A stretch of DNA of 42,183 nt, taken from a virus. How positions within the stretch are numbered: the first letter of the stretch is position 1; each line of letters begins with the position of its first letter. This document shows positions 2,903-34,424 of this stretch, piece by piece. The stretch spans positions 1-42,183 of IMG/VR virus record IMGVR_UViG_3300011113_000563; one strand, 5' to 3'. Both the position numbers and the translations under genes were made by a program. The notes beneath the pieces were generated by a model. It was given only the letters and a program-made list of their open reading frames with translations, had not been told where the DNA came from and did not search any database.

Positions 2903-3626
2903 AATAGTAAGTTGTTTTTGGAATGTTGAGGGGTATATAGAAAAATGTATTAATTCAGTTAAATCACAATCATTTAAAAATTTTAAAATGTTTTTAATTG
3001 ATGATATGTCTAACGATAAAACTAATGAAATTGTAGAAAAATTAATACAGGATGACGATAGATTTATTCACATAAAAAATACAGAAAAAAAGTTTAAATT
3101 AAAAAATTTAGATGATTTATTAATGGATGAATCATTAATTGATGATGAAGATATAATTGTTGAATTGGATGGTGATGATTGGTTTTATAATGAAACGGTT
3201 CTACAAAAAGTTTTTGATAAATACAACAAAAATAAAAACCTTTGGATTACTAATGGTAGTTTTATTTATTCAGATGGTAGAATGGGATTTTCTGCAAAGT
3301 CAAACCCTCAAACAATAAGAAAAGATTTATTTGTTTTTTCACACCTAAGAACGTGGAAAGCCCACTTATGGCGAAGTATTGGTGAGGAATCTTTCATTGA
3401 ACAAAATGGGGATTATTTTAAGTCAGGTGCGGACACCGCATATTCGTTCCCAATGTTAGAAATGGCGGGAGAAAAACACTATGAATTTATACCTGACATT
3501 CTTTTAGTTTATAATGAAGAAAACCCACACAATGACCATAAAAATGGAAGTGCTAGTGGGTCAAGTTATGAACAATTTAGAGTTTCAAACATAATAAGGA
3601 GTATGAAAAAATATGATGAACTATGA
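2895..3626 (+). CDS. Family 2 glycosyltransferase
   Basis: A GT-A fold inverting glycosyltransferase that would transfer a sugar from a nucleotide donor to a growing glycan. The N-terminus IVSCFWNVEGYIEKCINSV (residues 4-22) followed by FLIDDMSNDKTNEIV (33-47) is the standard GT2 nucleotide-binding pattern, and VELDGDDWFYNE (89-100) contains the DxD metal-binding motif. At 243 residues it is a soluble catalytic domain with no membrane segments. It overlaps the upstream two-domain enzyme by eight bases and the downstream GT11 gene by four (ATGA), so it sits inside one translationally coupled run. Donor and acceptor are not predictable. Confidence 0.9.
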   Translation: MIKIVSCFWNVEGYIEKCINSVKSQSFKNFKMFLIDDMSNDKTNEIVEKLIQDDDRFIHIKNTEKKFKLKNLDDLLMDESLIDDEDIIVELDGDDWFYNETVLQKVFDKYNKNKNLWITNGSFIYSDGRMGFSAKSNPQTIRKDLFVFSHLRTWKAHLWRSIGEESFIEQNGDYFKSGADTAYSFPMLEMAGEKHYEFIPDILLVYNEENPHNDHKNGSASGSSYEQFRVSNIIRSMKKYDEL

Positions 3627-4438
3627 GTAAATTCATTTCTTGTAATTTTATGGGGGGTCTTGGAAATCAAATGTTCCAAGCCGCACACGCAGTTAGTCAG
3701 GGACTTAAAACTAAACGTGAAACTATTTTTTTAAAAAATTCTTTTACACCAATGCAAGGTAATCAAACTTCAAACTATATTAATAATGTTTTTAGAAATT
3801 TAAATTTTGTTGAAAAATTACCAACTGAATATGATTTAGTTAGGGAAAAATCTTGGGACTATAATGAAACCATACCTTCACAAAATAATTGTGTTTTTGA
3901 TGGGTATTTTCAGAGTTCTAAAAATTTCTTAGGGTTTGATAATCAAATACAAAAGTTATTTGCGCCAACAGAAAATTTTATAGAAGAATTTTTAAATAAA
4001 TATTCAAATTTACAAAATGAAAATACACTTTCTATACACATAAGAAGGGGTGATTGTTTTTTTAACTTGGACATACATCCAGTTGCTAATGAAAAATATG
4101 TTGAGAAATGTTTAGAAATTTTAGGAGATTATGAACATGTTTTTGTTTTTAGTGACGACAAAAAATGGGTTAAAGAAAATTTAAAATTAAGTAATTGTAC
4201 TTTTGTTGAAGGCCTTGATGATTACGAAGAAATGTGGATGATGTCTTTGTGTAAAAATAATATAATAGTTAATTCAACTTTTTCTTGGTGGGCATCATTT
4301 TTAAACACAAACCCAAATAAAAAAATTATAGCACCTTCAATATGGTTCGGACCAAGAGGTCCTCAAAAATATTTAGATATTTACGAAAATTATTGGAAGG
4401 TTGTAAACGTTACATATAAAAATGGTTTTTTAGAATAA
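3623..4438 (+). CDS. GT11 family glycosyltransferase (alpha-1,2-fucosyltransferase-like)
   Basis: Resembles GT11 alpha-1,2-fucosyltransferases, which move L-fucose from GDP-fucose to galactose or similar sugars. Hallmarks are GGLGNQMFQAA at residues 11-21, the basic donor-binding motif HIRRGD at 139-144, a FVFSDD segment, and NSTFSWWASFLN near 218-229. The 271-residue length is normal for bacterial GT11 enzymes and no membrane segment is present. The GDP-mannose 3,5-epimerase encoded at 11661 would make GDP-L-galactose, which differs from GDP-fucose only at C6, so this enzyme might accept that donor; this is inference. It overlaps the GT2 gene by four bases and is three bases from the next gene. 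Confidence 0.88.
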   Translation: MSKFISCNFMGGLGNQMFQAAHAVSQGLKTKRETIFLKNSFTPMQGNQTSNYINNVFRNLNFVEKLPTEYDLVREKSWDYNETIPSQNNCVFDGYFQSSKNFLGFDNQIQKLFAPTENFIEEFLNKYSNLQNENTLSIHIRRGDCFFNLDIHPVANEKYVEKCLEILGDYEHVFVFSDDKKWVKENLKLSNCTFVEGLDDYEEMWMMSLCKNNIIVNSTFSWWASFLNTNPNKKIIAPSIWFGPRGPQKYLDIYENYWKVVNVTYKNGFLE

Positions 4439-15435: not shown

Positions 15436-16248
15436 ATGGAAAATTTAGAAAAATTAGACGTATCTGTAATCTTACCAATAGATTCCGCAAAAAACATTAT
15501 GTTTAACGAATTGTTTAACAGAGCAATTACATCAATAACAACACAAATCGCACCAATCAACGAATTAGTTATTGTACACACAGATGAAGAGTTACTAAAA
15601 AATACTTTAGACAATTTCGATTTTAGTGGTTTAACCGTAACTTTAGTTGAAAACAAAAATGAATTTGATTTTTCAACACAAGTAAATATTGGAGTTAAAC
15701 ACGCAAAAAGTAAGTGGGTATCAATTTTAGAATTTGATGACGAATATTCAACAATATGGTTCAAGAACTTTAACAGATATCAAAAGGCGTATCCTGAGGT
15801 TGATGCTTTTTTACCTATTGTTATTGATACTGATGAAAAAGGTGTTTTTGTTGGATTTACAAACGAGGCAACTTTTGCTGTGAGTATAAACTCTGAAATT
15901 GGGTATTTGAACAACGACACTTTATTGAATTACCAAAACTTCCAATCGAGTGGTATGGTAATTAAAAAATCAACTTTTGAAGATAATGGAGGTTTTAAAT
16001 CAAGTATGAAATTAACTTTTGTTTATGAATACCTTTTAAGATTAACTTACAACTCTGCAAAAATTATGACAATACCAAGAATTGGTTACAAACATATGAA
16101 CTTAAGACCGGGTTCTATTTTTTGGAATTATAAAAATGGTGATAAAAAAATTACTGATGATGAGGTTAGTTTTTGGATTGAGTCGGCAAAAAAAGAACAT
16201 TTTTTTACTTCAGATAGAAACATAAAATTTGAACCACAAAGTGTGTAA
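15436..16248 (+). CDS. Family 2 glycosyltransferase next to the sigma gene
   Basis: A 270-residue GT2-like enzyme. VSVILPIDSAKNIMFNELFNRA (9-30) is the opening of the GT-A fold, ITSITTQIAPINELVIVHTD (31-50) is the usual nucleotide-binding segment, and KSKWVSILEFDDEYS (91-105) has the DD metal site. GGFKSSMKLTFVYEYLLRL near residue 190 fits the acceptor part of the domain. It follows the GT-B gene by four bases; the stop codon overlaps the sigma start as TAATG. Co-transcription with a late sigma and tail genes suggests that it acts late, perhaps on structural proteins. Donor and acceptor are unknown. Confidence 0.82.
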   Translation: MENLEKLDVSVILPIDSAKNIMFNELFNRAITSITTQIAPINELVIVHTDEELLKNTLDNFDFSGLTVTLVENKNEFDFSTQVNIGVKHAKSKWVSILEFDDEYSTIWFKNFNRYQKAYPEVDAFLPIVIDTDEKGVFVGFTNEATFAVSINSEIGYLNNDTLLNYQNFQSSGMVIKKSTFEDNGGFKSSMKLTFVYEYLLRLTYNSAKIMTIPRIGYKHMNLRPGSIFWNYKNGDKKITDDEVSFWIESAKKEHFFTSDRNIKFEPQSV

Positions 16249-16991
16249 TGTTCTTGGAGGACCCGAAACCCAAAGAATCAGAAGAAAAGCAAAAGACAGA
16301 AAAAAAAAGTAAAAATTATTTTGACGTAAGAGAGGAAGAGGCGGTGAAAAATTATATCACCGCCGAAACCCAAAAAGAAAAAGAAGAAATATATAATAAA
16401 TTTCTTAAAGAGCCTTTAGATAAAATGATTGACTCAATTATTAGGAGGTACAAACTTTATCGTAAAGATATTGAATACAACGAATTACATACCGACACAC
16501 ATTCTTTTTTAATGACTAAGGTTGATAAATTCAAACCAGCAAAAAACAAAAAGGCCTATTCATATTTCGGTACTATATGTAAAAACTATTTGATGGGTCA
16601 AATACAAAAAGACCAAAAAGAAACAAATAGAAAAGTTTCTTATGAAGATATTTCCGCAACATTAGAAAATAGACCGGATATGGTTTACTATTTAGAATAT
16701 GAAAAAATGGATGCAGAAAAAATTATAGACATTTTTATGGTAGACTTAAAAAATCATGTTAACAACACTAATATGGTTGAAGAAGAGTATAAATTAGGAA
16801 GTGCTCTTATAGAATTATTTGATAACTATGGGAACATTTTTATTGGAAATAATAATAATAAATTTAATAAAAACATTGTTTTATTGTCTTTAAGAGAAAT
16901 GACTAATTTATCAACAAAAGAAATCAGGACGTATCTTAAAAAATATAAAATTTTGTATATCAACACAATTAATAGAATAAATAATAATTAG
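16248..16991 (+). CDS. Late-transcription sigma factor, gp55-like
   Basis: Probably a divergent sigma-70-family subunit equivalent to T4 gp55, which directs host RNA polymerase to late promoters. Residues about 55-125 match sigma region 2: an entry helix PLDKMIDSIIRRYKLY, then HTDTHSFLMTKVDKFKPAKN, then KKAYSYFGTICKNYLMGQIQ, in which the FxPxxxKKAYSYFxTICKN stretch is typical of phage late sigmas. A C-terminal segment LSLREMTNLSTKEIRTYLKKYK has a helix-turn-helix look. The first 30 residues are charged and probably disordered. It is 247 residues, longer than T4 gp55 (185). A TATTTATA octamer begins nine bases after its stop, before the next gene, and the same octamer precedes many late genes here. 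Confidence 0.75.
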   Translation: MFLEDPKPKESEEKQKTEKKSKNYFDVREEEAVKNYITAETQKEKEEIYNKFLKEPLDKMIDSIIRRYKLYRKDIEYNELHTDTHSFLMTKVDKFKPAKNKKAYSYFGTICKNYLMGQIQKDQKETNRKVSYEDISATLENRPDMVYYLEYEKMDAEKIIDIFMVDLKNHVNNTNMVEEEYKLGSALIELFDNYGNIFIGNNNNKFNKNIVLLSLREMTNLSTKEIRTYLKKYKILYINTINRINNN

Positions 16992-17382: not shown

Positions 17383-19365
17383 ATGGCAAATTTAGATATT
17401 AATAAAGGTTATTCTGATGCTAAAAGTAAAATTAGTGCTTACCAAACACTAAAACAAAGTAAGGAAGACGATATTAAACAAAAAATAGAAAAAACAAAAT
17501 CTAGTCTCGACCAAAAAAAAAGTGAGGTTCAAAAAACAATTAATGATTTAAAAAAAGGAGCAGCAGACAAAAAAAACCAAATCAAAAATGAAGTTAAAAA
17601 TCAATTAGAACAACTTTTAGATTTATTTAAAGCAACATTACCAAGTGGTGGAGGACCTTCTTTAAAAATTTTAACCAACGTTTTTTTAGAGGCAGCGGTT
17701 AATACAAAATCCAGAATACAAGAAGCTCTTGTTAGTGAAATTGTAACAACTATCGGATGTTCAGAAGAACAATCGTACACCCCAAACCAACCAATTTATA
17801 TTAAAGTAAATCAAGTAGATTTATTCAAAATCTTAAAAAATTCACCAACAGAAGACGAATATAAATTTTACTACGAAAAAAACACAACAAACAACGGTAG
17901 CATTCCTTATTCTATGAATAGGGAGTTATATAAAAGACTTCAAAACCCGTCACAATCTTTTTTACAAGATACTACAGGTGGTAATGGTCAAACATATAAG
18001 GGTGCTTCTGCTTCTCAAATTTTTGATATACAATATGTGCAAAATTATTTAGGTCCTAACAACCTTCAAGTAACCGGAGATTTTTTTAAAGTTACTCTTA
18101 ATAGTCAGTTAAATAACAGAACAACTGTTACAGATTTTTTACAAGATTACTATACAAGCATTGATATAATGCCATTCGATAATTTAGCAGTGAATTTGAA
18201 AAACTTATTAAGTGGTTCGTTTGATTTTTCGGCCGGATTATCAAGTGACCAATTAAGAGAAGAAAGTAAATTCGAAAAAGTTTTGAAAAGAATAATGGGT
18301 ATTTGTGAAGACCCAAATAAAAAAATTGATGTTGCCGGAACTTCAAAATTGAGTGACGTTGACGAAATTGATGATTCATTTTTTGATGTCACAAATCAAG
18401 AACTAATGTCTGTAGAACAAAAAATAAATAATACAATTGCAGGTGTTGTTGAATATGAGGGTTGTGAGGGAATCAAGTTACCTGTTAATGTGCTTGCAGA
18501 TAGAAAATCACAAGAAGAAATTGTAAATGAAAACGTTGATAGCAAAAAAATATCCAATTTTCAAAAGTCTTTGGAAGATATGGCAAATGACCCAAAATGG
18601 AAATCCTTGATTCCAGGACTTGGGTTGGATTTAAATATTTTATCACTTTTACAGAGTAATATTATTTTGGGGCTACCTTTGATGGTTCTTAAAACCATTT
18701 TATCGCCAAAAGTTATGTTAGGTTTTTTAATTATGGTTAAAGCAATTAAAAATGAAATTTCAGAAAAGTTAGATGACGCATTTGATGACCTAACAAATTT
18801 TATGAAAACATTCAAAAAGTTTATTTTAAACTTTATGAAAAAAATCACAGCAATTTTTGTCGAGGAGCTTTTTAAAATTTTGAAAAAACAAATTAAGGTT
18901 TTGGTTGAATCAATTTTATTAGAAATTGTAAAAGAAGCTAAAAATAAACAAATAAGTATGTATGCAAATATTGTATACATACTTTTAGTTATTGGTCAAG
19001 GAGTTTTAGATTATGGGAATTGTAAAAGTGTGATTGATGAAATACTTAAATTATTAAACCTTGGTTTGTCTCAATTAAATTTAGGTCTTCCACAATTTAT
19101 TTTAGCCGGAGCGTCTTTATTAGGTGGTGTGTCTGATACAAGAGCATTTTCTAATGTTTTGGAAGGGTTACAAAAACAAGGATTACCAACTGGAGGAGCT
19201 CCTGATGGTGGACCAAATTTTATGAATTTATCTATGTTATCAATGATAAAGGGAATGAATCAAGAACAAGCAGAAAATGGTAAAACAGAAGTTTTTATTC
19301 CACCATTGACAATAACTCCGGCATTTGTAACTTTACCTTCAAAAGGATATGGAAAATCATACTAA
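17383..19365 (+). CDS. Large virion protein, candidate tape-measure or hub-associated protein
   Basis: A 660-residue protein without a family I can name. Residues 1-75 are Lys/Glu/Gln-rich coiled coil (KQKIEKTKSSLDQKKSEVQK and onward). Residues about 90-270 look mixed alpha/beta, with YTPNQPIYIKVNQVDL. Residues about 405-570 hold several long hydrophobic helices, for example LGLPLMVLKTIL and MYANIVYILLVIGQGVL, and the C-terminus is Gly/Pro-rich (PTGGAPDGGPN). Coiled coil plus hydrophobic helices just upstream of the OB-fold hub gene would suit a tape-measure or hub component; T4 gp29 is 590 residues. This is inference from context. It overlaps the next small gene by 17 bases. Confidence 0.5.
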   Translation: MANLDINKGYSDAKSKISAYQTLKQSKEDDIKQKIEKTKSSLDQKKSEVQKTINDLKKGAADKKNQIKNEVKNQLEQLLDLFKATLPSGGGPSLKILTNVFLEAAVNTKSRIQEALVSEIVTTIGCSEEQSYTPNQPIYIKVNQVDLFKILKNSPTEDEYKFYYEKNTTNNGSIPYSMNRELYKRLQNPSQSFLQDTTGGNGQTYKGASASQIFDIQYVQNYLGPNNLQVTGDFFKVTLNSQLNNRTTVTDFLQDYYTSIDIMPFDNLAVNLKNLLSGSFDFSAGLSSDQLREESKFEKVLKRIMGICEDPNKKIDVAGTSKLSDVDEIDDSFFDVTNQELMSVEQKINNTIAGVVEYEGCEGIKLPVNVLADRKSQEEIVNENVDSKKISNFQKSLEDMANDPKWKSLIPGLGLDLNILSLLQSNIILGLPLMVLKTILSPKVMLGFLIMVKAIKNEISEKLDDAFDDLTNFMKTFKKFILNFMKKITAIFVEELFKILKKQIKVLVESILLEIVKEAKNKQISMYANIVYILLVIGQGVLDYGNCKSVIDEILKLLNLGLSQLNLGLPQFILAGASLLGGVSDTRAFSNVLEGLQKQGLPTGGAPDGGPNFMNLSMLSMIKGMNQEQAENGKTEVFIPPLTITPAFVTLPSKGYGKSY

Positions 19366-24589: not shown

Positions 24590-26476
24590 TTATCTCAATT
24601 CTTGTAAGTCAAATGAACGAACACCATCAACTGTGATACGTCCGTAGAAACGGTTGTTAACCATTTTCTTAGCGTATCTTGTCATTATACCTTTAATAGG
24701 TGTAAAGTTGAATGGGTTGTACATTGTAGGTGTTAATTGTAGAGGTACATACGGTGCGTAAACGTAACCAGTATCAAGAAGTGATGTTCCTTTGTGTCCT
24801 AACAATACTTGGTTTGCTGGGAAGTAAGGGTCACGATATACTTGGTAACGACCTGCTAATGTACCAACTCTTTCAATACCCATGTTGTATTGGTCTTGCT
24901 CAGGAGATGCATTTGATACGTGGAAGTATTCAAGGTCATCAAAGATTGCAGAAACCTCAGAAGAAACAACAATCCAGTTAGCTCCACCACGAAGTGTAGA
25001 CTTGTGGATTTGTGCTGACAATTGGTTGATTGCTGTAATCAAAGTTTGGTTCCAATCTTTTTGAGTGTAAGAAGTTGTGTTAGACAATCTTCTCCATCCG
25101 TTGTAATCCCAACGTAAGTTCCAAGCTGCACCTTTACGAAGGTCACGAAGAATTTCACGGTCAATTTCTGCTGCAACTTGCTCAGACAATAAAGCTGTTA
25201 ATTCAGCTTCAGCGTCGATGTTGTGGAATGCAGAAACATCTTGTGCCAATTCAGGAGACCATTGTGCTCTTAGTTTTCTTTCTGTTACAGATACAGTAAC
25301 TGACTCAAGGTCGAAAGAAACCTCACCAATTTGGTCTTCAAATTCAAGTTCTTTGTAACGTCTGTAAGCAGCCTTGATAACTGTGTTAGCTCCTGTTCCA
25401 GACCAAGCACTTGTAAGAGTTGCTCCTGAATAACCATCAATAGTTTGTGCGTTAGAACAAGATACACATACTGGTACTTGTGCGTCGATTTCTAAATAGA
25501 TAAATCCTTCAACATCACAGATATTATCATAAGAACCTCCGTTACCAGCTGAAGAACTTGCAAACCCACTTCCAAAAGGAGCTGAAGTTCTTGTTGAAGT
25601 TGGTCCTACAATACCTTGACCATATTTTTGAGTTACAACTCTAAATAATAGTGGTGTATATGTAGATGTTTTAAGGTCAGCAGCTGCTGATGAACTTTCA
25701 GTATACAATACTAAATTAGATAAAAACGCTTCGTTGTCAATTTCTTGACCATCAGGTCCAATTAATTTACCAACACCCGCTGAAGAAAATCCTGACATAG
25801 CTACAAGGATTTTTCTATACTCAACACCCGCAATTGCTGTTACGTTAGTTGTATATGCAGACGCAATAAGTGCCCCATTTGACCAAGCAACTGTAGGTGT
25901 AGAACCTGTTACAGTTACAAACTGACCTTTTGAGTAATCGAATAAACCGGCTGGATTCAATCCTGGTTCAGAACCTTCATAAAATAAATCATAAAGACTT
26001 CTAGTGTAAGAAGGATTATAATCACCGTTTGTGTTATAATAACCATCGTTAGTTTGTCCTTGCATACTTGGTGAACCAATTGGTCCATAATGTGTTCCTG
26101 AAGTGATACCCAAATTATTTTGAACAGTACCACCAGAATATCCTTGGATTTTAGGTACAAAGTAGAACAATTTACCGATAGGTAAGTTCATCGCTTGTAC
26201 AGATACTAAATCGTTAGCCAACAATTTAGAGAATACACGTCTTACGATAGGGAAAACTACAGTTTCGAAAGAACCTGAGCTATCTGTAGATGCTGCTTCG
26301 TTAATTAGGTGAGACGCTTGGTTTTCATATAATTGTGCCATGTTCTCTTTAACGTGTCCTCTAAGACCGTCTAGGAATCCTAATCTATCCCATTTGTTAA
26401 TTGTATCTTCTTTGATAACTTTAAGGTGCTTAAGACCGATGTTACCAACAAGACCTGATTCTAATAATGCTCCCAT
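24590..26476 (-). CDS. gp23: Major capsid protein, gp23-like
   Basis: The main shell protein of the head. The N-terminal region follows the T4 gp23 pattern: a propeptide with LKHLKVIKEDTINKWDRLGFLDGL, then ENQASHLINE, where cleavage by the prohead protease is predicted after Glu60 (INE, then AAST), close to Glu65 in T4. Next comes FPIVRRVFSKLLANDLVSVQAM (about 75-96), the most conserved gp23 segment. The C-terminal part includes WNLRWDYNGWRRL and ANWIVVSSEVSAIFDDLEYF, also typical. At 628 residues it exceeds T4 gp23 (521), mainly through a Gly/Ser/Thr-rich stretch in the middle (about 110-330). Codon use is more GC-rich than its neighbours, as expected of a highly expressed gene. It follows the scaffold gene and is closed by a strong terminator. 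Confidence 0.95.
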   Translation of the reverse strand: MGALLESGLVGNIGLKHLKVIKEDTINKWDRLGFLDGLRGHVKENMAQLYENQASHLINEAASTDSSGSFETVVFPIVRRVFSKLLANDLVSVQAMNLPIGKLFYFVPKIQGYSGGTVQNNLGITSGTHYGPIGSPSMQGQTNDGYYNTNGDYNPSYTRSLYDLFYEGSEPGLNPAGLFDYSKGQFVTVTGSTPTVAWSNGALIASAYTTNVTAIAGVEYRKILVAMSGFSSAGVGKLIGPDGQEIDNEAFLSNLVLYTESSSAAADLKTSTYTPLLFRVVTQKYGQGIVGPTSTRTSAPFGSGFASSSAGNGGSYDNICDVEGFIYLEIDAQVPVCVSCSNAQTIDGYSGATLTSAWSGTGANTVIKAAYRRYKELEFEDQIGEVSFDLESVTVSVTERKLRAQWSPELAQDVSAFHNIDAEAELTALLSEQVAAEIDREILRDLRKGAAWNLRWDYNGWRRLSNTTSYTQKDWNQTLITAINQLSAQIHKSTLRGGANWIVVSSEVSAIFDDLEYFHVSNASPEQDQYNMGIERVGTLAGRYQVYRDPYFPANQVLLGHKGTSLLDTGYVYAPYVPLQLTPTMYNPFNFTPIKGIMTRYAKKMVNNRFYGRITVDGVRSFDLQELR

Positions 26477-26511: not shown

Positions 26512-27966
26512 TTATTTTATTTTGTTCATTAAATCCTTCATTCTCATAAATTGAGGATTTTCATAAGCTTTAGACTCAATCAAATTAGAGGCTGAACCAT
26601 TACTTGGAGTTTTAATAACTTTTTGTGTAATTGATTCTGTCATCACTGAGTTTGGTGTATCACCTAACTCTTCTTTGATTGATTTGTAAAGTGATTTTGA
26701 TTCCTTCAAAGAATCTACATTGTCGAATCTTCTAAGAATATTGATTTTTTCTTGTTTTGTTGTTGAGTGTTCGGTAAACAAACGTGTAGCATATGCCAAG
26801 TTTGAATTAAAAATTGCAACTTCGTTCAATTTATTTCTAAAAAAGTCTAATGCTTTTCTGTACTCTTCATTTTTTTCTTTCAAAGTTTCTAATTCATATG
26901 ACTCATATGTTAAGTTTCTATTCGGAGTAATGGCTTTTCTTAAGCCCCTACCTTTTTTAGAACCATTTCCATAAGTTCTAGCCGCTTCAGCGGTTTCTGC
27001 GTCATCATCCTCTTCAACATCTTCTTCGTGCATCCAACCATCAGAAATTTCATCTTCACCTGTTTCAGTCACTCCGTGTTTCAATTTTTTAGGGTAAATG
27101 TTAGATTTCATTTTACCAATTTTACCTTTTGCTTTAAAAGCCTCAACAACATTTTCTAATGATTCTTGGTCGATTTCATAAACTTGGTCGTCCATTTCGT
27201 CCATATGACCCATACCTTCGTTATAGTCCATTTCGTACATGTCTTCGTCCATATGACCCATACCTTCGTTATAGTCCATTTCGTACATGTCTTCGTCCAT
27301 ATGACCCATACCTTCGTTATAGTCCATTTCGTACATGTCTTCATCCATATGTCCCATACCTTCGTTGTAATCATCTTCATACATACCGCCCATCATCGAA
27401 TCATCTTCAAAAACCAATTCGTATATTGTATTTTCTGCCATTGGTTCAGTTTGTTGTTCAACTGGTTGTTCAGTTGGTTGTGGTGTTGGTTCTTCTGCTG
27501 CAATACTAATAAGATATTCTGTATTAGCTTTACCATCTTTCAAATGAATAAAGTCACCATCTTTTTTGATAATAAATCCATCTTCATCACCCATTGCTGC
27601 AAAAACTTTCATAAGTTCTGGCATTGGTGCAGATGTCATATCTAATGGTGGTAATTCTTGTCCTGCTGGTGGCATTGTACCTTCACCGTTATCGGTATCT
27701 GCTTGGGGTTGTTGTGTTACAACTTCTTCTTCTGCAGACACTTCTTCTTCGCCTTCTTGTTCTGGTTCTTGTGGTTGTTCACCACCTTGTGCTTGTTCTC
27801 TTAAAGACCTCTTGGAACCTAAAATAGACTCCCTTACTAATTCGCCGATTTCTTCCTTCATTGTAGAAGCAAGTATTCCTTTTGCATTTTCACTAATCGC
27901 TTCTTCGATAGACTTCATTTGTAGTAAAGCCTCTTCAACTAAGGATTCTGTTTTTCTGTTACTCAT
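26512..27966 (-). CDS. Prohead scaffold/core protein, gp22-like
   Basis: An acidic 484-residue protein in the T4 gp22 position, between protease and capsid. The N-terminus ESLVEEALLQMKSIEEAISE is helical; residues about 60-130 are Glu/Gln/Pro-rich; residues about 200-255 hold four copies of the 16-residue acidic unit MGHMDEDMYEMDYNEG. The C-terminal third is a long coiled coil (YELETLKEKNEEYRKALDFF) and ends in helices. Several LxE and IxE sites (for example LVRE, LREQ) fit removal by the prohead protease. The sequence does not align by eye with T4 gp22, so the call rests on position, acidity and coiled coil. A promoter-like octamer lies 32 bases upstream, and a terminator precedes that. Confidence 0.78.
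   Translation of the reverse strand: MSNRKTESLVEEALLQMKSIEEAISENAKGILASTMKEEIGELVRESILGSKRSLREQAQGGEQPQEPEQEGEEEVSAEEEVVTQQPQADTDNGEGTMPPAGQELPPLDMTSAPMPELMKVFAAMGDEDGFIIKKDGDFIHLKDGKANTEYLISIAAEEPTPQPTEQPVEQQTEPMAENTIYELVFEDDSMMGGMYEDDYNEGMGHMDEDMYEMDYNEGMGHMDEDMYEMDYNEGMGHMDEDMYEMDYNEGMGHMDEMDDQVYEIDQESLENVVEAFKAKGKIGKMKSNIYPKKLKHGVTETGEDEISDGWMHEEDVEEDDDAETAEAARTYGNGSKKGRGLRKAITPNRNLTYESYELETLKEKNEEYRKALDFFRNKLNEVAIFNSNLAYATRLFTEHSTTKQEKINILRRFDNVDSLKESKSLYKSIKEELGDTPNSVMTESITQKVIKTPSNGSASNLIESKAYENPQFMRMKDLMNKIK
27202..27393. repeat. Four tandem 48-base repeats inside the scaffold gene
   Basis: Copies begin at about 27202, 27250, 27298 and 27346. The first three are almost identical in DNA, while the last has several substitutions, most of them silent. 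Each codes for the 16-residue unit MGHMDEDMYEMDYNEG. The near-identity suggests recent expansion by slippage or recombination. Confidence 0.9.
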
Positions 27967-28006: not shown

Positions 28007-28059
28007 TGCAGACTTTGTAAAAAATTTAATTTTATCTTAAAAAAGATGTGAAAACAAAA

Positions 28060-28082
28060 AAAGGTCCCTTTTGGGGACCTTT
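28060..28082 (-). terminator. Intrinsic terminator between the DUF4494-like and scaffold genes
   Basis: A perfect nine-base-pair stem AAAGGTCCC / GGGACCTTT with a TTTTG loop; in the minus-strand transcript it is followed by a long U-rich run. It ends the terminase-portal-protease transcript 19 bases after the stop at 28101. Confidence 0.85.
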
Positions 28083-28100
28083 CATAAAATCAAATAAAAG

Positions 28101-28320: not shown

Positions 28321-29031
28321 TTATTTATCTAAATAATTAGATAATCTTTTCATTAAGTCAACAGATTTATCTAATCCACCACCTGTACTATATATATTTT
28401 CATGTTCTGCCAATTTTTCTTCGTATTTTGGTCTATCTTCAGCATTTAAATATAGATATGCCCCTGGCGTTGATGGTGAAGAAACGAGGTCAAAACAAAT
28501 TAATTCAAAATCTTCTTGAACTTCATTTTGTTCTCCTTTTTTGACTAAAGACCCGACCCCACGAGAAGATACCCCCATAGTGACTCCTTGTCTCATAAGA
28601 TTTGCTGCAACATCACCCTTTGATGTCACAATACCTCTTTCGTGAAAACCGGGACTTGTTAATAATTTTATTTTACCCATTAAAATGTTTCCTTCCCACC
28701 AAGTTTCAGTAATTAAATGAGAAACCCTATCTAAATCAATTAAAGATGATTCGGGGTGATTTAGTTCTGAAATTGACATACCTCTTTTGATTACATCTTG
28801 GTATTTTTCAGCTTCTCTTTTTAATATTTTTTCTGGATAGATTCTTCCGTTTCTATTTGGAACTCCATGTTTTTGAAGTGTTGCATAAAACACAAAAGGT
28901 TTTGAGTGGTCAAGTTGACCATATGATTCTTTGATTATACTTTGGTTTCTTGGTTCGTTGGGATTCATAATTCCTGCATCCCACTCAACAAGAATTCCTT
29001 TACCCGTGTCTTTCGGTCCTAAAATTCTCAT
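28321..29031 (-). CDS. gp21: Prohead maturation protease, gp21-like
   Basis: The serine protease that trims scaffold and capsid proteins during head maturation (peptidase U9/S78-like, herpesvirus assemblin fold). The three expected positions are visible: His92 in ELNHPESS, a Ser at 155/156 in MGVSSRGVGS, and Asp181 in CFDLVSSPSTPGAYL. VPNRNGRIYP near 57-66 and TSPGF near 125-129 are also conserved in phage prohead proteases. At 236 residues it is close to T4 gp21 (212). In T4 it cuts after (L/I)xE, a motif found in several nearby proteins here. It lies 21 bases after the 149-residue gene and has a TATTTATC 13 bases upstream. Confidence 0.93.
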   Translation of the reverse strand: MRILGPKDTGKGILVEWDAGIMNPNEPRNQSIIKESYGQLDHSKPFVFYATLQKHGVPNRNGRIYPEKILKREAEKYQDVIKRGMSISELNHPESSLIDLDRVSHLITETWWEGNILMGKIKLLTSPGFHERGIVTSKGDVAANLMRQGVTMGVSSRGVGSLVKKGEQNEVQEDFELICFDLVSSPSTPGAYLYLNAEDRPKYEEKLAEHENIYSTGGGLDKSVDLMKRLSNYLDK

Positions 29032-29052: not shown

Positions 29053-29502
29053 TTATATTTCTTGTGTTTCTGCCAATTTTGTTTTACTTAATGTAAAATA
29101 AAGTGAATTTTTTAAATCATCTTTGTATATTGACGACAAAATATTTTTAATTTTTGACCTTAAAATAATTGATTTGAAATCATAAGTTTCGTTGTGAATA
29201 AAAAGTGTAACTTCTAAATTTAAAAAACTTTTTTTATTTTTTTGAAGTCCACTTGTTCTTAGGTCTAAGTCTACTATATATTTTTTTTCAAAAATTTTGT
29301 GGTCTACAACTTCCAATAACGTGTGTAAAATTTGTCTTTTTATACTTCCTGTGATTGAAACCCAATTTGAGTAATCATCTTTTGGTTCAACCCATGTTTG
29401 TAAAATTAAATAAATTGATTTAAAATTTTTGGAATCGACTGTTCCATATTGACATTTTGCATCATCAAAAATGTTTAATTTTGATGTTTTTCCTTTCTTC
29501 AT
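29053..29502 (-). CDS. Unknown protein between portal and protease genes
   Basis: A 149-residue protein that I do not recognise. It has a basic start (MKKGKTSKLN) and mixed alpha/beta text: SIYLILQTWVEPKDDYSNWVSI, then HTLLEVVDHKIFEKKYIVDLDLRTSGLQ, then NLEVTLFIHNETY. The alternating hydrophobic pattern in the second half suggests a beta sheet followed by helices, like a small nucleic-acid-binding or capsid accessory protein. It sits where T4 has genes 67 and 68, the small prohead core proteins, but it is not acidic like gp67. No promoter-like octamer precedes it; the 105-base gap upstream belongs mainly to the divergent bS21 gene. Confidence 0.6.
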   Translation of the reverse strand: MKKGKTSKLNIFDDAKCQYGTVDSKNFKSIYLILQTWVEPKDDYSNWVSITGSIKRQILHTLLEVVDHKIFEKKYIVDLDLRTSGLQKNKKSFLNLEVTLFIHNETYDFKSIILRSKIKNILSSIYKDDLKNSLYFTLSKTKLAETQEI

Positions 29503-29579
29503 TTTTCATATGTAAGAGGTTTATTTTTATAAAATGTAATAATTAGAATTAAATTTGTCAAAACTTAAAAAAGTTTGTA

Positions 29580-29587
29580 TATTTATA
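29580..29587 (+). promoter_or_regulatory. TATTTATA octamer before the bS21 gene
   Basis: TATTTATA ends 20 bases before the ATG at 29608. The larger stretch TTTG, about 20 bases, then TATATTTA also resembles the TTTG / TAnnTTTG promoter of Bacteroidota, so a host-type promoter is an alternative. Confidence 0.45.
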
Positions 29588-29607
29588 TAACTAAAAAGAA
29601 AAAATTT

Positions 29608-29799
29608 ATGATTATAGTTGAAGTGAAAAAAGGAAATATTGAACAAGCCTTAAAACAATATAAATTTAAAATTTATAAAACAAAACAATTAGAATTTTTA
29701 AGAGATAGACAAGAATTTGAAAAAAAATCTGTTAAAAATAGAAAACAAAGAATAAAGGCAGTTTATATTCAAAAAAAACAAAATCAATTTTCTTCTTGA
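29608..29799 (+). CDS. rpsU: Ribosomal protein bS21
   Basis: A 63-residue copy of bS21, a small-subunit protein that binds near the 3' end of 16S rRNA and takes part in mRNA selection. The order matches bacterial S21: IIVEVKKGNIEQALKQYKFK (2-21), then LEFLRDRQEFEKKSVKNRKQ (28-47), then AVYIQKKQ. The FEKxSVKNR and the (K)AVYIQ ending are closer to Bacteroidota S21 than to the Arg-rich tail of E. coli. The start is ATG 29608; a TTG at 29575 would add a basic tail that does not fit the family. It is the only plus-strand gene in the 16.5-kb minus-strand block, overlaps the holin-like gene tail-to-tail by 16 bases and has its own promoter-like octamer. Confidence 0.9.
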   Translation: MIIVEVKKGNIEQALKQYKFKIYKTKQLEFLRDRQEFEKKSVKNRKQRIKAVYIQKKQNQFSS

Positions 29800-30035
29800 T
29801 TTTTATCTGTCTTTTTTTTGTTAGTAAAAAAATCAACCGACGTAAGCCCCAAGGTTCCAAACGATAATAGACCAATAGTTTCTACTAAAATTACAGGTGC
29901 CTCATATTTCCCACAACTAAATAAAGATACAAATAAAGAAACAATCAAAGAAATACTACACAAAAGACCAATAAATCTTTTGGATGAAATACCACCATTG
30001 GCACCTTCCATCATATTTTTAAAAAATTTTATCAT
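29784..30035 (-). CDS. Small holin-like membrane protein
   Basis: An 83-residue protein with two hydrophobic segments: RFIGLLCSISLIVSLFVSLF (about 20-39) and ILVETIGLLSFGTLGLTSVDFF (about 49-70). The short N-terminus MIKFFKNMMEGANGGISSKR is basic and the C-terminus TNKKKTDKNQEEN is charged. This layout fits class II holins and similar small membrane proteins of Bacteroidota phages, where a short N-terminus followed by SSKRF is common (from memory). It starts inside the upstream gene's stop (ATGA overlap) and overlaps bS21 tail to tail. A structural membrane-associated role cannot be excluded, and no endolysin gene is adjacent. Confidence 0.6.
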   Translation of the reverse strand: MIKFFKNMMEGANGGISSKRFIGLLCSISLIVSLFVSLFSCGKYEAPVILVETIGLLSFGTLGLTSVDFFTNKKKTDKNQEEN

Positions 30036-30769
30036 AACCCTTCTTGGAGTTGTTTCAACTTGTAGTAGTTATAAAAATCTATTGGTGAGTTTTGTATTTT
30101 ATCTACAGTTTTTTGTATTGTATTTTTTAAATCTTTTTCATCAGATTCATTTAATTTCATTTTTAAATTACCAACAATAGATTCTTTTAATCTTTCCATT
30201 CTCAATCCCAACTCATCTTTTGATAATGAAACAATTTCTTTTATTTCATTTTTTTCAGTTTCTGATAAATTAGAAATTTCTTCATTTAATTTTGAATTTG
30301 CAACTTTAATCATAGTTTCTAAAGGTAAATTAATTGACTCAGAAACAATTTTATCTTTTTTTGGTGTGGTAAGAATTTTAGAAATTTGTTTTTTTGATTC
30401 TAATATAGATTCTAAATTTTTAATAGATTTGTTATAAATAACAGTATCAATAGTTTCGTATTTATTATTTGAATTACTATGTAAATCAATCGCGTTAATC
30501 CAAGAATTTACTTTACTTAGAATTTTTGAATTGTTTTCTACCAAAATTTGCGAATATTCCACAGATTCATTCACGTAGTCATTCACCAAATCTACAGACA
30601 TACCTTTATTTTGCATCAAATCATCATATATGTAATACAATTCTGCAATATCTTTATTTTCTAACACAATAGTTCTGAATTGATTAGAAAAATATTTAAA
30701 CTCTTTTTTACCATATAAGTTAATAAAAGTTTCTTCTATTTTAGTTTTAATTTCACCAAAAGTCGCCAT
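30032..30769 (-). CDS. Helical protein between portal and holin-like genes
   Basis: A 245-residue protein without a recognised family. It is almost entirely helical in appearance and rich in Lys, Glu, Asn and Ser: FGEIKTKIEETFINLYGKKEF at the start, NKSIKNLESILESKKQISKI in the middle, and LNEEISNLSETEKNEIKEIVSL followed by LRMERLKESIVGNLKMKLNES. Its place directly after the portal gene matches T4 genes 67/68, which encode prohead core proteins, so a role in head assembly is reasonable but unproven. LNEEIS and LRMERLKES contain LxE sites. A TATTTATT lies 13 bases before the start. It overlaps the holin-like gene by four bases. Confidence 0.6.
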   Translation of the reverse strand: MATFGEIKTKIEETFINLYGKKEFKYFSNQFRTIVLENKDIAELYYIYDDLMQNKGMSVDLVNDYVNESVEYSQILVENNSKILSKVNSWINAIDLHSNSNNKYETIDTVIYNKSIKNLESILESKKQISKILTTPKKDKIVSESINLPLETMIKVANSKLNEEISNLSETEKNEIKEIVSLSKDELGLRMERLKESIVGNLKMKLNESDEKDLKNTIQKTVDKIQNSPIDFYNYYKLKQLQEGL

Positions 30770-30791: not shown

Positions 30792-32615
30792 TTACTTATT
30801 TAATAAGTTTTTGATTTTATTATCTATTTCATTTAAAGACATTCTACCTTTTGATAAATCTAATGTGTTGTCCTTATCAAAAAGTGTGTTTTCTAAAATT
30901 AAATTTAAATCATTTTTATTGAAGCTTTCGGGAGTTACAGCTCCTCCTTCAGGTGGTGGCGGCGCTCCTCCAGCGTCAGGTGGTGGTGCTCCTCCACCGG
31001 CATCGGGTGGCATTCCTCCCTCAGCAGGTGCTCCTCCGGCATCTCCACCACCTGCAGCCGCCGCGTCATCTTTTTTACCGTATAGTGAATCAAGAGTATC
31101 AAATAATCCTGTTTTAGTTATTACCTCAGCAGTTTTACCTAACTCAGCAGATACCGCTCTTTCAATTCTTTGTTGTTGTAAATCAAGTCTAATTTCATCA
31201 TCAGAAAATCCTAAAATGTGTTTTTTGGCCCAAGACGCCGATACAGGAGCAACACTATCTTGAATTGGTGCGACAGCGTCTTTAAACAATGTGATTTTTT
31301 CTTTCCATAATTCAATACCAAGAAGGTCAGATTGTTTTGACGGGTTTGTAAGCCCAAGAGTAAAGTTTGTTAATTCATCTTCAAACCCTAATAAAAATAA
31401 ATGAATGATTGCAATTTTGTTCATTTCTGCAATCATTGATTTTTGAATTCGGTTGATTGTTCTTGCAAATCTAATGTCGAGAAGTGATAAGTTTTTACCA
31501 TCACCAACAGCTTCCTCAAATCCAAGATATGCTTTAGGAATACGGAGGGCCGTAACTAATTTCTTTTGGATATATTCGATGTCAGCAATTTCTGCAAGGT
31601 TTTGAGCCCCCGCCAAAGTGGTAATAGGTTCAGGTGCTGCCATATCTCTCACAGGAATAAAGTAATCTTGGTCTACGGCCATTTGATTGTATCTCATATC
31701 AACATTTCCTGTTTTTTGGTCAACAATTTGGTCTCTTTTAAATTTGTTTGCAACTCTTTGTACATATGCATCAACATCTTTATCATCCATATTACCAACA
31801 AAAACCTTAAATACACGTCTTTCAGGGGCTCTTGATACACGATAAATCAACATTGCATCTTCAGATAACAAAAGTTGTTTCCAAATACGACGTGCTTTTT
31901 CTAACATTGAAGTTCCGTATGGAAGTTTTCTGTCGTCCCCTAAAATTCTAAAGTGAGCAACTTCCCAAGTATTAAACTCCATATTTTTTTCCTTCCAAGT
32001 GAACTTCAACGCATCATTTTCAATTTCTGCCGAATATTTTTCTGGTTGGAATTTCATACCTTTTTCCAAACGTTCGATTTGAATGTTTGGTAATTGTTGA
32101 CAACCAACCACACCCCTTTCTGGGTCCAACTTTAAATAAACAAAATTATCACCAAACTTACAAGTGTTTCTAATCCACATCGGTAGATTGGTATTAATAT
32201 CTAACTTATTGTTAAATAAATCTGTTAATACCGATTTGATTCTTTTTGATTCTGAATAAATTTGAAGAATATGTCCGTCTTTATCGGGTGTTGTTGATTC
32301 TTCGGCATAAATGTCTAATGCTGCCGAAATTTCAGGGGTATATTCCATTGACTCATAATCATAATATGAAGCCATTCTTGTTGGTTCATAATAAACGGCC
32401 TGTTGATATAGGTTACTTTCAACTTTTTGCCATTGTTGACCAATGTACATTGTTTGTTGAGCCTGTAGTTTTTCTCTTTCGTAATCTTGTTTGTTTGGTG
32501 TTTTTAAAAGTTCTTTTTTATCAAACTTAAAAACAGGGGACTGTTGGTCCATCGTTGAATTTGGTCCAAAAACTTTACCTAATCTTTGCCAAACCGTATA
32601 TTTTTCTTCTGCCAT
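30792..32615 (-). CDS. gp20: Portal protein, gp20-like
   Basis: The dodecameric vertex protein through which DNA enters the head and to which the neck attaches. Conserved gp20 stretches are clear: EYTPEISAALDIYAEESTT (about 69-87), MWIRNTCKFGDNFVYLKLD (about 141-159), WEVAHFRILGDDRKLPYGTS (about 217-236) and RIWKQLLLSEDAMLIYRVSRAPERRVF (244-270). At 607 residues it is longer than T4 gp20 (524); the extra length is a Gly/Ala/Pro-rich segment near residues 510-560 (GGDAGGAPAEGG, GAPPPDAGGAPPPP) followed by a short conserved-looking tail. This GC-rich patch stands out from the AT-rich gene. It lies 33 bases after the terminase gene, with no octamer in the gap, so the two are probably co-transcribed. 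Confidence 0.94.
   Translation of the reverse strand: MAEEKYTVWQRLGKVFGPNSTMDQQSPVFKFDKKELLKTPNKQDYEREKLQAQQTMYIGQQWQKVESNLYQQAVYYEPTRMASYYDYESMEYTPEISAALDIYAEESTTPDKDGHILQIYSESKRIKSVLTDLFNNKLDINTNLPMWIRNTCKFGDNFVYLKLDPERGVVGCQQLPNIQIERLEKGMKFQPEKYSAEIENDALKFTWKEKNMEFNTWEVAHFRILGDDRKLPYGTSMLEKARRIWKQLLLSEDAMLIYRVSRAPERRVFKVFVGNMDDKDVDAYVQRVANKFKRDQIVDQKTGNVDMRYNQMAVDQDYFIPVRDMAAPEPITTLAGAQNLAEIADIEYIQKKLVTALRIPKAYLGFEEAVGDGKNLSLLDIRFARTINRIQKSMIAEMNKIAIIHLFLLGFEDELTNFTLGLTNPSKQSDLLGIELWKEKITLFKDAVAPIQDSVAPVSASWAKKHILGFSDDEIRLDLQQQRIERAVSAELGKTAEVITKTGLFDTLDSLYGKKDDAAAAGGGDAGGAPAEGGMPPDAGGGAPPPDAGGAPPPPEGGAVTPESFNKNDLNLILENTLFDKDNTLDLSKGRMSLNEIDNKIKNLLNK
30955..31070. repeat. GC-rich low-complexity patch in the portal gene
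   Basis: This stretch codes for alternating Gly-Gly-Ala and Pro-Pro-Asp/Glu runs (GGGAPPPDAGGAPPPPEGG). Its base composition is far more GC-rich than the rest of the window, and imperfect repeats of the GGTGGTGC type are visible. It has the look of slippage-driven expansion of a flexible linker. Confidence 0.7.
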
Positions 32616-32648: not shown

Positions 32649-34424
32649 TTAAACTCTTCTGTTACCAAACAACCAAGAATAATTTTCATAATCACTTTTT
32701 GTTGGTCCTGAATACGACCTACTATTATACATATCAGTTTTTGCTGGTATTGAAGGATTAAAATTTTGTGATGATTCTGTAAACATGTTTTTATCCGTTG
32801 TCCAAGAGTCAATCATTGCTTTTGCTTGTTCTGTTGCCTTTTCAAGTTGGGCAAAAGACGATTCACCTACATATATGGCCATTGCCATTGCCATAATTAA
32901 ATCGTCGTGTTGACCTTTTTGGTGGTCAGGTCTACCATTCACATAAACAAAAGTGTTAAGTTCATTAAATAACCTCTGAGACCTTACTGCAAACCCAAAT
33001 CTCAAAGCTTCCTCAAATGCCTGAACAATGAGAACCCTTTTTGAGTTAAAATTAATTCCAGGTATTTTTTCATTTTGTTTTGGGTCCCACTTCCACTTAT
33101 CTGCGGGATTTATTCCATCTATATATAAATTTTTATATCCCAATTCTTGTAACTTTCTTGATGTTGCAACACCCATACCACCGGTAATATCGGTTACAAT
33201 GAATGCATTATACATTGTTGCCCACTTATATGCAATTTCTGCAACAATATCAGGTGGAACTTTCGCAATATATTCTAAAACTTGTTCTCTCTCATCAAAA
33301 TCAATAATAATAAAAGTAGTAAAATCTTCACTATCTCCTCTAGAAACGTCCATACCCATAATGTATCTGTGTCCTGTAACCGGTTCTTTCCATTGCCACA
33401 ATACACCACCCATAAATTTATTTTCAGGTTCTCTTATAAAATTGTCTTTTATTTTTTTCATCGTTTCAGGAGGTATCACGTTATCCCCCGAACCTAAAAA
33501 GTTACATTCCAACTCTTGTGATATTTTACGTTTGTCAAATTTTAATTTTTTTGACATCGCTTCAAACCAAGAAGAATATGGTTTGTAACCTTGCTCAAGT
33601 TTTTGTTTTATTTCTTCAAAATTTCTATCATTTATTTTTATGCTAGAATAATCTATTATTATTTCATTATCTTTATAATCACCCCTGTTTAACATATAGT
33701 GAATTATATCATCACACTTAATTAACTTTAAATCTTTAGAATACCGTGGGTCACGAAACCAAAACATTTCAGTGATTTTAAAGTCATTCATTCCTTTTAT
33801 TGCTTGTGAATAAATTGAATAATAAATTTGGTCAAATCCATTTGGTGTTGAAATTACAATTACTTTACCACCTGTAGATAGTGACGCCATACAAGCAGAC
33901 CAAAAGTCTTCATCCGCATCGATATAAGCTGCCTCATCAAAAATAAGAATTGTTGGAGTATACCCACGTAAAGCATCTTTTGATGTTGCAACCGCCTTAA
34001 CCTCACAACCATTACTTAATTTGAAATGTCTTGCCGCATTTTTTTCAGATGAAAACCCTACACCTAACCAAGAAGGCCATTGTTCAACAAAAGACCTTAC
34101 TTTATTTGCCATTTCAACGGCAGTATCCAATTTGTTTGCAATTATTAGAATTTTTTCTGGTTTTGATTTTTTAGCAAAAACTAATCTTTTAGACGCCCAA
34201 GCGGATGTTACGGTTGAAACCCCAGCCTGACGATACTTCAAAGCAATATTTTCTTCGGCTGTGTCGTAATCTTTTACAAGAGTAACTTGGTCATTAAATA
34301 ATTCTAATGGGACGTATTTAGATTGTGTGTTGTCGTAAGTTTGTAAATATGTTTTAAGTGCATATGGCGTATCATTTACACACTTAGCATACTCTAATAA
34401 TATTTGTTCTTTTGATAACGACAT
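32649..34424 (-). CDS. gp17: Terminase large subunit, gp17-like
   Basis: The packaging motor: an ATPase joined to an RNase H-like nuclease. The ATPase half has a deviant Walker A, KYRQAGVST (63-71), with the usual central Lys replaced by Val; motor ATPases with an N-terminal basic residue in this loop are known. Walker B is ILIFDEAAYID (159-169, Asp163 and Glu164), and VISTPNGF (190-197) is the coupling motif. The nuclease half has metal-binding acids at MGMDVSRGD (Asp359), VTDITGG (Asp412) and GQHDDLIMAMA (Asp507/508). At 591 residues it is near T4 gp17 (610). Gene order terminase then portal differs from T4, where tail genes 18 and 19 lie between them. Confidence 0.95.
   Translation of the reverse strand: MSLSKEQILLEYAKCVNDTPYALKTYLQTYDNTQSKYVPLELFNDQVTLVKDYDTAEENIALKYRQAGVSTVTSAWASKRLVFAKKSKPEKILIIANKLDTAVEMANKVRSFVEQWPSWLGVGFSSEKNAARHFKLSNGCEVKAVATSKDALRGYTPTILIFDEAAYIDADEDFWSACMASLSTGGKVIVISTPNGFDQIYYSIYSQAIKGMNDFKITEMFWFRDPRYSKDLKLIKCDDIIHYMLNRGDYKDNEIIIDYSSIKINDRNFEEIKQKLEQGYKPYSSWFEAMSKKLKFDKRKISQELECNFLGSGDNVIPPETMKKIKDNFIREPENKFMGGVLWQWKEPVTGHRYIMGMDVSRGDSEDFTTFIIIDFDEREQVLEYIAKVPPDIVAEIAYKWATMYNAFIVTDITGGMGVATSRKLQELGYKNLYIDGINPADKWKWDPKQNEKIPGINFNSKRVLIVQAFEEALRFGFAVRSQRLFNELNTFVYVNGRPDHQKGQHDDLIMAMAMAIYVGESSFAQLEKATEQAKAMIDSWTTDKNMFTESSQNFNPSIPAKTDMYNSRSYSGPTKSDYENYSWLFGNRRV

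Follow-up and report, generated by a model that had tools for sequence, protein, structure and literature searches.

The phage gene for ribosomal protein bS21 described here combines three features that we report as new: a phage-type promoter, a promoter region shared with an invariant 149-aa gene, and a leader that lacks the Shine-Dalgarno (SD) sequence of the host type. Chen et al. (2022; PMC9723584) have already described both the placement of such a gene on the strand opposite to the head genes and its late transcription, and the window, by which we mean the whole virus record analysed (IMG/VR IMGVR_UViG_3300011113_000563; 42,183 bases, 30% G+C), is a further case. The reading that we hold to be somewhat probable is that the gene would furnish a late supply of bS21 free of host feedback, by which ribosomes would be kept replete and host bS21 swapped out.

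The open reading frame at 29608-29799 on the plus strand translates to MIIVEVKKGNIEQALKQYKFKIYKTKQLEFLRDRQEFEKKSVKNRKQRIKAVYIQKKQNQFSS, a protein of 63 aa. It matches the Pfam family Ribosomal_S21 (PF01165; E=2.9e-10) at 40.1 bits, where the cutoff is 27, falls slightly below the cutoff of the NCBI equivalog model TIGR00030 (28.5 against 28.95 bits), and has bS21 chains, including that of F. johnsoniae (7jil), as its top relatives among solved structures. Tyr53 of the window protein aligns with Tyr54 of the F. johnsoniae host bS21, so that the protein carries the aromatic residue that stacks on A1534 in bS21 of the Bacteroidia type. This position is Tyr in 30 and Phe in 1 of the 31 distinct phage bS21 sequences of our first set of relatives (80 IMG/VR loci found by protein search, which share the gene order of the window and in all of which bS21 lies on the opposite strand), and it is His in one diverged relative, L262. 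Among seven close relatives dN/dS is 0.05-0.30. The first-pass annotation had called the gene a 63-residue phage bS21 with a Bacteroidota-type ending and had proposed a comparison with host bS21 at the rRNA-contact residues. Both calls are borne out, and the comparison finds the Tyr54 equivalent kept and the residues of bS21 function under purifying selection. The alignments thus support a phage bS21 of the Bacteroidia type that would retain the residues needed for the bS21 role. We infer that the host of this large phage is Flavobacterium-like, genus included.

Within a head block of the T4 type, bS21 is the only gene on the plus strand; all genes around it lie on the minus strand. The order is terminase large subunit (TerL, 32649-34424; PF03237, E=3.4e-13; phrog_2, E=2.4e-37), gp20-like portal (30792-32615; PF07230, E=2.7e-77), a 245-aa protein of unknown function (30032-30769), a small protein of 83 aa, hydrophobic in its centre (29784-30035), bS21, the 149-aa orphan gene (29053-29502), gp21-like prohead protease (28321-29031; PF03420, E=7e-23), a 69-aa gene, a 484-aa protein in the position of the gp22 scaffold (26512-27966; assigned by position and by weak similarity to the corresponding genes of immuto and Mel-JY01), and gp23-like major capsid protein (MCP, 24590-26476; PF07068, E=3.5e-73). 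With TerL, portal, protease and MCP all on the minus strand, the initial description of bS21 as an opposite-strand gene inside a minus-strand head block is confirmed. A terminator-like hairpin lies on the minus strand at 28059-28083, between the 69-aa and 484-aa genes. The arrangement, with two hypothetical genes flanking an opposite-strand bS21 in a TerL-portal-protease-MCP region, is the one reported for freshwater Bacteroidetes phages, where bS21 was found on the reverse strand of that region (Chen et al., 2022). Clades a-e of that study resemble the window also in the co-conserved neighbour of bS21, the aromatic residue 54, the freshwater origin and a Flavobacteriia-like bS21.

Further searches, for which a diverged clade, host bS21 and a diverged 149-aa gene served as seeds, brought in another 52 contigs with an opposite-strand bS21, for 132 IMG/VR contigs in total; four repeated contigs are counted once, and L268 and L316, which have a host-like bS21 and no head genes, are left out. 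The bS21 of L268, a 72-kb viral contig, is 77% identical to Flavobacterium rpsU, is without a strong SD, and has no head genes of the window lineage near it. The relatives extend beyond those of Chen et al. (2022) to more divergent lineages, with bS21 44-57% identical, and to a clade (that of L277) in which the gene in the 83-aa slot is flipped onto the bS21 strand. The bS21 of Microcystis phage Mel-JY01 (PP395634) likewise sits in a T4-type head block, but on the same strand as the head genes, in the gap between protease and MCP, and with no 149-aa gene; within 8 kb of bS21, the huge phages LR745206 and LR7565xx have none of the head genes of the window lineage.

The 3' end of bS21 converges on the 83-aa gene with an overlap of 16 nt, and no terminator-like site separates both genes on the plus strand. 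The opposite-strand transcript might for this reason work at the RNA level, as an antisense transcript that covers the 83-aa gene and runs further, damping the head block in its upstream part. We regard this as very unlikely: selection acts on the protein (dN/dS as above), the overlap ranges from 16 nt down to 0 among relatives, and the overlapped gene is itself replaced or flipped. In relatives its slot, which lies between the 245-aa gene and bS21, is occupied by either of two small genes unrelated to each other, or is empty.

Upstream of bS21, and in sense to it, the octamer TATTTATA (29580-29587, plus strand; extended form TATATTTA at 29578-29585) forms the -10-like element of a promoter 20 nt ahead of the ATG. 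That bS21 has an octamer of its own had been proposed from the window sequence alone, and the element proves real by its conservation and by its sense-strand enrichment upstream of genes. Among distinct leaders of the relatives, TATTTAT stands in sense before bS21 in 34/34, before the 245-aa gene in 32/32, the protease in 32/32, the 484-aa gene in 24/24 and a 244-aa gene in 5/5, and before none of TerL, MCP and the 83-aa gene. The window has 13 copies of the octamer and 45 gene starts; nine copies stand in sense no more than 80 nt ahead of a start, where 0.5 would be expected, against one in antisense, and TATTTATA ranks first in this upstream position among the 56 8-mers of the same letters. 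Two large relative contigs, with genes called as longest ATG frames, agree: a sense octamer lies within 60 nt of 20 of 166 genes in one (6 antisense; 1.2 expected) and of 21 of 130 in the other (7 antisense; 1.5 expected). Total octamer counts are not above those of shuffled sequence or of the reversed pattern, so it is position and strand that carry the signal.

The element resembles the T4 late promoter in that both place a short octamer of A and T ahead of structural genes. It is, however, TATTTATA and not the T4 late octamer TATAAATA, of which it is the reverse complement; the T4 form in sense precedes only 1 of the 45 window genes. We thus regard it as an element specific to the phage and distinct from the T4 sequence. 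A further difference from T4 is the TTG that stands 25 nt upstream of the bS21 octamer, and most other octamer genes are without it. Among the long genes of one contig, the octamer precedes those for the tail sheath and the head-tail adaptor, and ribonucleotide reductase, an SbcC-like gene and a helicase lack it. These associations make it likely that the octamer is a promoter element of the late type, which may not be strictly late, since in the window it also precedes an endonuclease VII-like gene and a sugar epimerase gene. A second motif, AATAAAC, occurs upstream of 8 of the 45 window genes (0.8 expected), MCP and the 149-aa gene among them (for example on the minus strand upstream of 29502, 26476 and 40335), and its complement GTTTATT recurs beside the start of the 149-aa gene in the intergenic regions of relatives.

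A candidate reader of the octamer is encoded at 16248-16991 (plus strand), possibly a sigma factor like T4 gp55. Its Sigma70_r2 match (E=0.0014) is weak and under the cutoff, and recurs as weakly in its relatives; with T4 gp55 it shares 30% identity over 56 columns (single-pair P=0.0055, hhalign probability 6.6%), and its fold model, at pLDDT 59, is too poor for use. One 166-kb relative contig, L171, has a clear sigma-70-type factor at 3588-4403 (Sigma70_r2, E=1.4e-18) as well as a weak gp55-like candidate. In the window, the plus strand from 1 to 16 kb carries genes for glycosyltransferases, UDP-glucose dehydrogenase, nucleotide-sugar epimerases and PhoH, and a 660-aa protein at 17383-19365 has a weak MreB-like_C match (27.4 bits against a cutoff of 27.8), perhaps a chance match in a coiled region.

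The promoter of bS21 diverges from that of the 149-aa gene. On the plus strand, a -35-like element, the hinge TTGTCAAAA (29555-29563), completes TTGTCA-N17-TATATT. On the minus strand, a sigma-A-like promoter of the 149-aa gene (29533-29561) reads TTGACA-N17-TACATT, and its TTGACA is the complement of the hinge. Both strands match the promoter scan at 10/12; such match counts are not above those of shuffled sequence, and the evidence for a divergent promoter is its conservation. In the group of the window the intergenic region is 103-107 nt long, with a mean identity of 98.6% in TTGTCAAA and 99.6% in the octamer, as against 73.6% in the remaining intergenic region. Of the 35 distinct intergenic regions, 32 have a recognisable hinge; in 31 of these the TTG lies 25 nt from the octamer, and in the remaining one 26 nt. 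All 35 carry, on the minus strand, TTGACA (in one case TTTACA) with TAnnnT beyond a spacer of 17 nt. One hinge is thus common to both directions of transcription.

Where loci are long enough to tell, bS21 and the 149-aa gene always adjoin and are never found apart; four loci without bS21 end too near the 149-aa gene to tell. Given the variable slot at the opposite flank of bS21, the fixed unit is bS21 with the 149-aa gene. Chen et al. (2022) described a neighbour of bS21 on the opposite strand, bS21_CN, that matches it in transcript level and phylogeny, and by its invariant position the 149-aa gene is probably this bS21_CN. If so, the shared promoter region would fit the co-expression that they reported and offers an explanation for it. 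The 149-aa protein has no match in Pfam, PHROG or PDB. Its AF2 model (pLDDT 82.7) matches no fold in the PDB at E<=0.001 and one viral model, A0A8S5L9A5, an uncharacterised protein of a gut myovirus (E=1.4e-9, TM 0.73). A match to FliL, seen for 5 of 20 members at E=0.0036, was judged to be chance. Profiles of the gene find nothing in immuto, Mel-JY01, four huge phages and one bS21-bearing gut contig, and tblastn finds no match in the phage collection. One could take the pair to be a two-gene unit for ribosome takeover, driven from the promoter region that both genes share, in which an SD-less leader escapes feedback and the 149-aa protein strips or excludes host bS21. We consider this doubtful; if true, the 149-aa protein would bring the exchange of bS21 to completion.

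The leader of the phage gene departs from that of its host counterpart. In Flavobacterium, mRNAs are SD-less, and rpsU is autoregulated through its own SD by ribosomes that lack bS21 (McNutt et al., 2023; PMC9976891). An SD used only by such ribosomes thus keeps the supply of host bS21 in Bacteroidia within bounds. We measured SD strength as the energy of the duplex between leader and the 3' tail ACCUCCUUUCU. A strong SD is present in all 80 leaders of Flavobacterium rpsU (32 distinct; -16.0 to -17.2 kcal/mol), whereas the A-rich leader of the window bS21, TAACTAAAAAGAAAAAATTT (29588-29607), reaches -2.5 kcal/mol, much like other window genes (median -1.55), and is without the extended SD of the autoregulated gene. 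Across the 80 contigs of the first set, 67 are no better than -6.2 kcal/mol, 12 have AAGGAGG at -12.2 and 1 is truncated; the diverged phage lineages are likewise without an SD. Loss of the SD is consequently not universal in phage bS21 leaders. The 12 leaders with AAGGAGG resemble host rpsU and belong to a single clade (the L060/L061/L073/L077 group), which branches first in a midpoint-rooted bS21 tree of few columns. An ancestral SD was not upheld, as deeper lineages are SD-less, and gain or retention would both be possible. With the strong SD missing, the phage gene would be free of the feedback that acts on the host gene. The text of Chen et al. (2022) makes no mention of a promoter, a sigma factor or an SD of the phage bS21 leader.

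A serious rival to the supply reading, proposed by Chen et al. (2022) and again in the first-pass annotation, is that phage bS21 makes a specialised ribosome, altering the choice of mRNA in favour of phage over host transcripts. The protein differs from Flavobacterium bS21 at eight near-fixed positions (R21F, F23V/I, D24Y, G27K, T28Q, R30E, A34D/E and A37E), and all are in the N-terminal half, in agreement with Chen et al. (2022), who place this half over the mRNA path. The two share the family and the C-terminal residues that hide the anti-SD, and distinct phage and Flavobacterium sequences form separate tree groups (100/100 support, from few alignment columns). The clustering of phage-wide substitutions, which a pure supply role leaves unexplained, speaks for a changed preference, as does the constant position of bS21 among structural genes in all relatives. 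Against it, phage and host mRNAs are alike SD-less, and phage bS21 keeps the tyrosine that hides the anti-SD, which leaves no sign of a changed leader preference in the sequence. According to the first-pass annotation, the exchange might favour phage mRNAs with A-rich leaders. Phage leaders in the window are A-rich, with 52% A at -20 to -1 as against 39% A in coding sequence, and no leader feature was found that marks phage from host mRNAs. We therefore think a change of mRNA preference possible, though on the unlikely side.

Under the supply reading, a phage-type octamer promoter would transcribe bS21 late in infection, from a compact region in which it diverges from the sigma-A-like promoter of the invariant partner gene. 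By homology, phage bS21 would replace the loosely held host bS21 in 30S subunits and, through its Tyr54 equivalent, keep the anti-SD hidden. Without a strong SD, its own translation would be independent of bS21-lacking ribosomes and should not shut down as bS21 accumulates. Such feedback-free synthesis, at the time when head proteins are made, would keep ribosomes replete for SD-less mRNAs, on which ribosomes with truncated bS21 start poorly (McNutt et al., 2023), and host bS21 would be displaced or diluted out by mass action. Chen et al. (2022) found phage bS21 to be transcribed late, together with structural genes.

The exchange may nevertheless impair rather than sustain translation, as the bS21 of pelagiphage HTVC008M, also a phage bS21 that enters ribosomes but one of the alphaproteobacterial type and of another lineage, left E. 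coli ribosomes almost inactive, with ~5% activity in vitro (Mizuno et al., 2019; PMC6375957). Phage bS21 might on this account serve to lower host translation or to disarm a defence that acts on the ribosome, and Chen et al. (2022) proposed the countering of a translation-stalling defence. We find such a role improbable: that assay used a foreign ribosome, and bS21 sits with head genes, whose production coincides with the greatest need for translation. Late expression alongside the head genes would also agree with the packing of bS21 into virions for delivery at the next infection, which Chen et al. (2022) raised and which seems to us highly improbable.

Given the missing SD, the phage promoter and the constant partner gene, the question of what phage bS21 does can now be brought to simple tests, for which the SD-bearing clade provides a natural comparison with the SD-less leaders of phage bS21.
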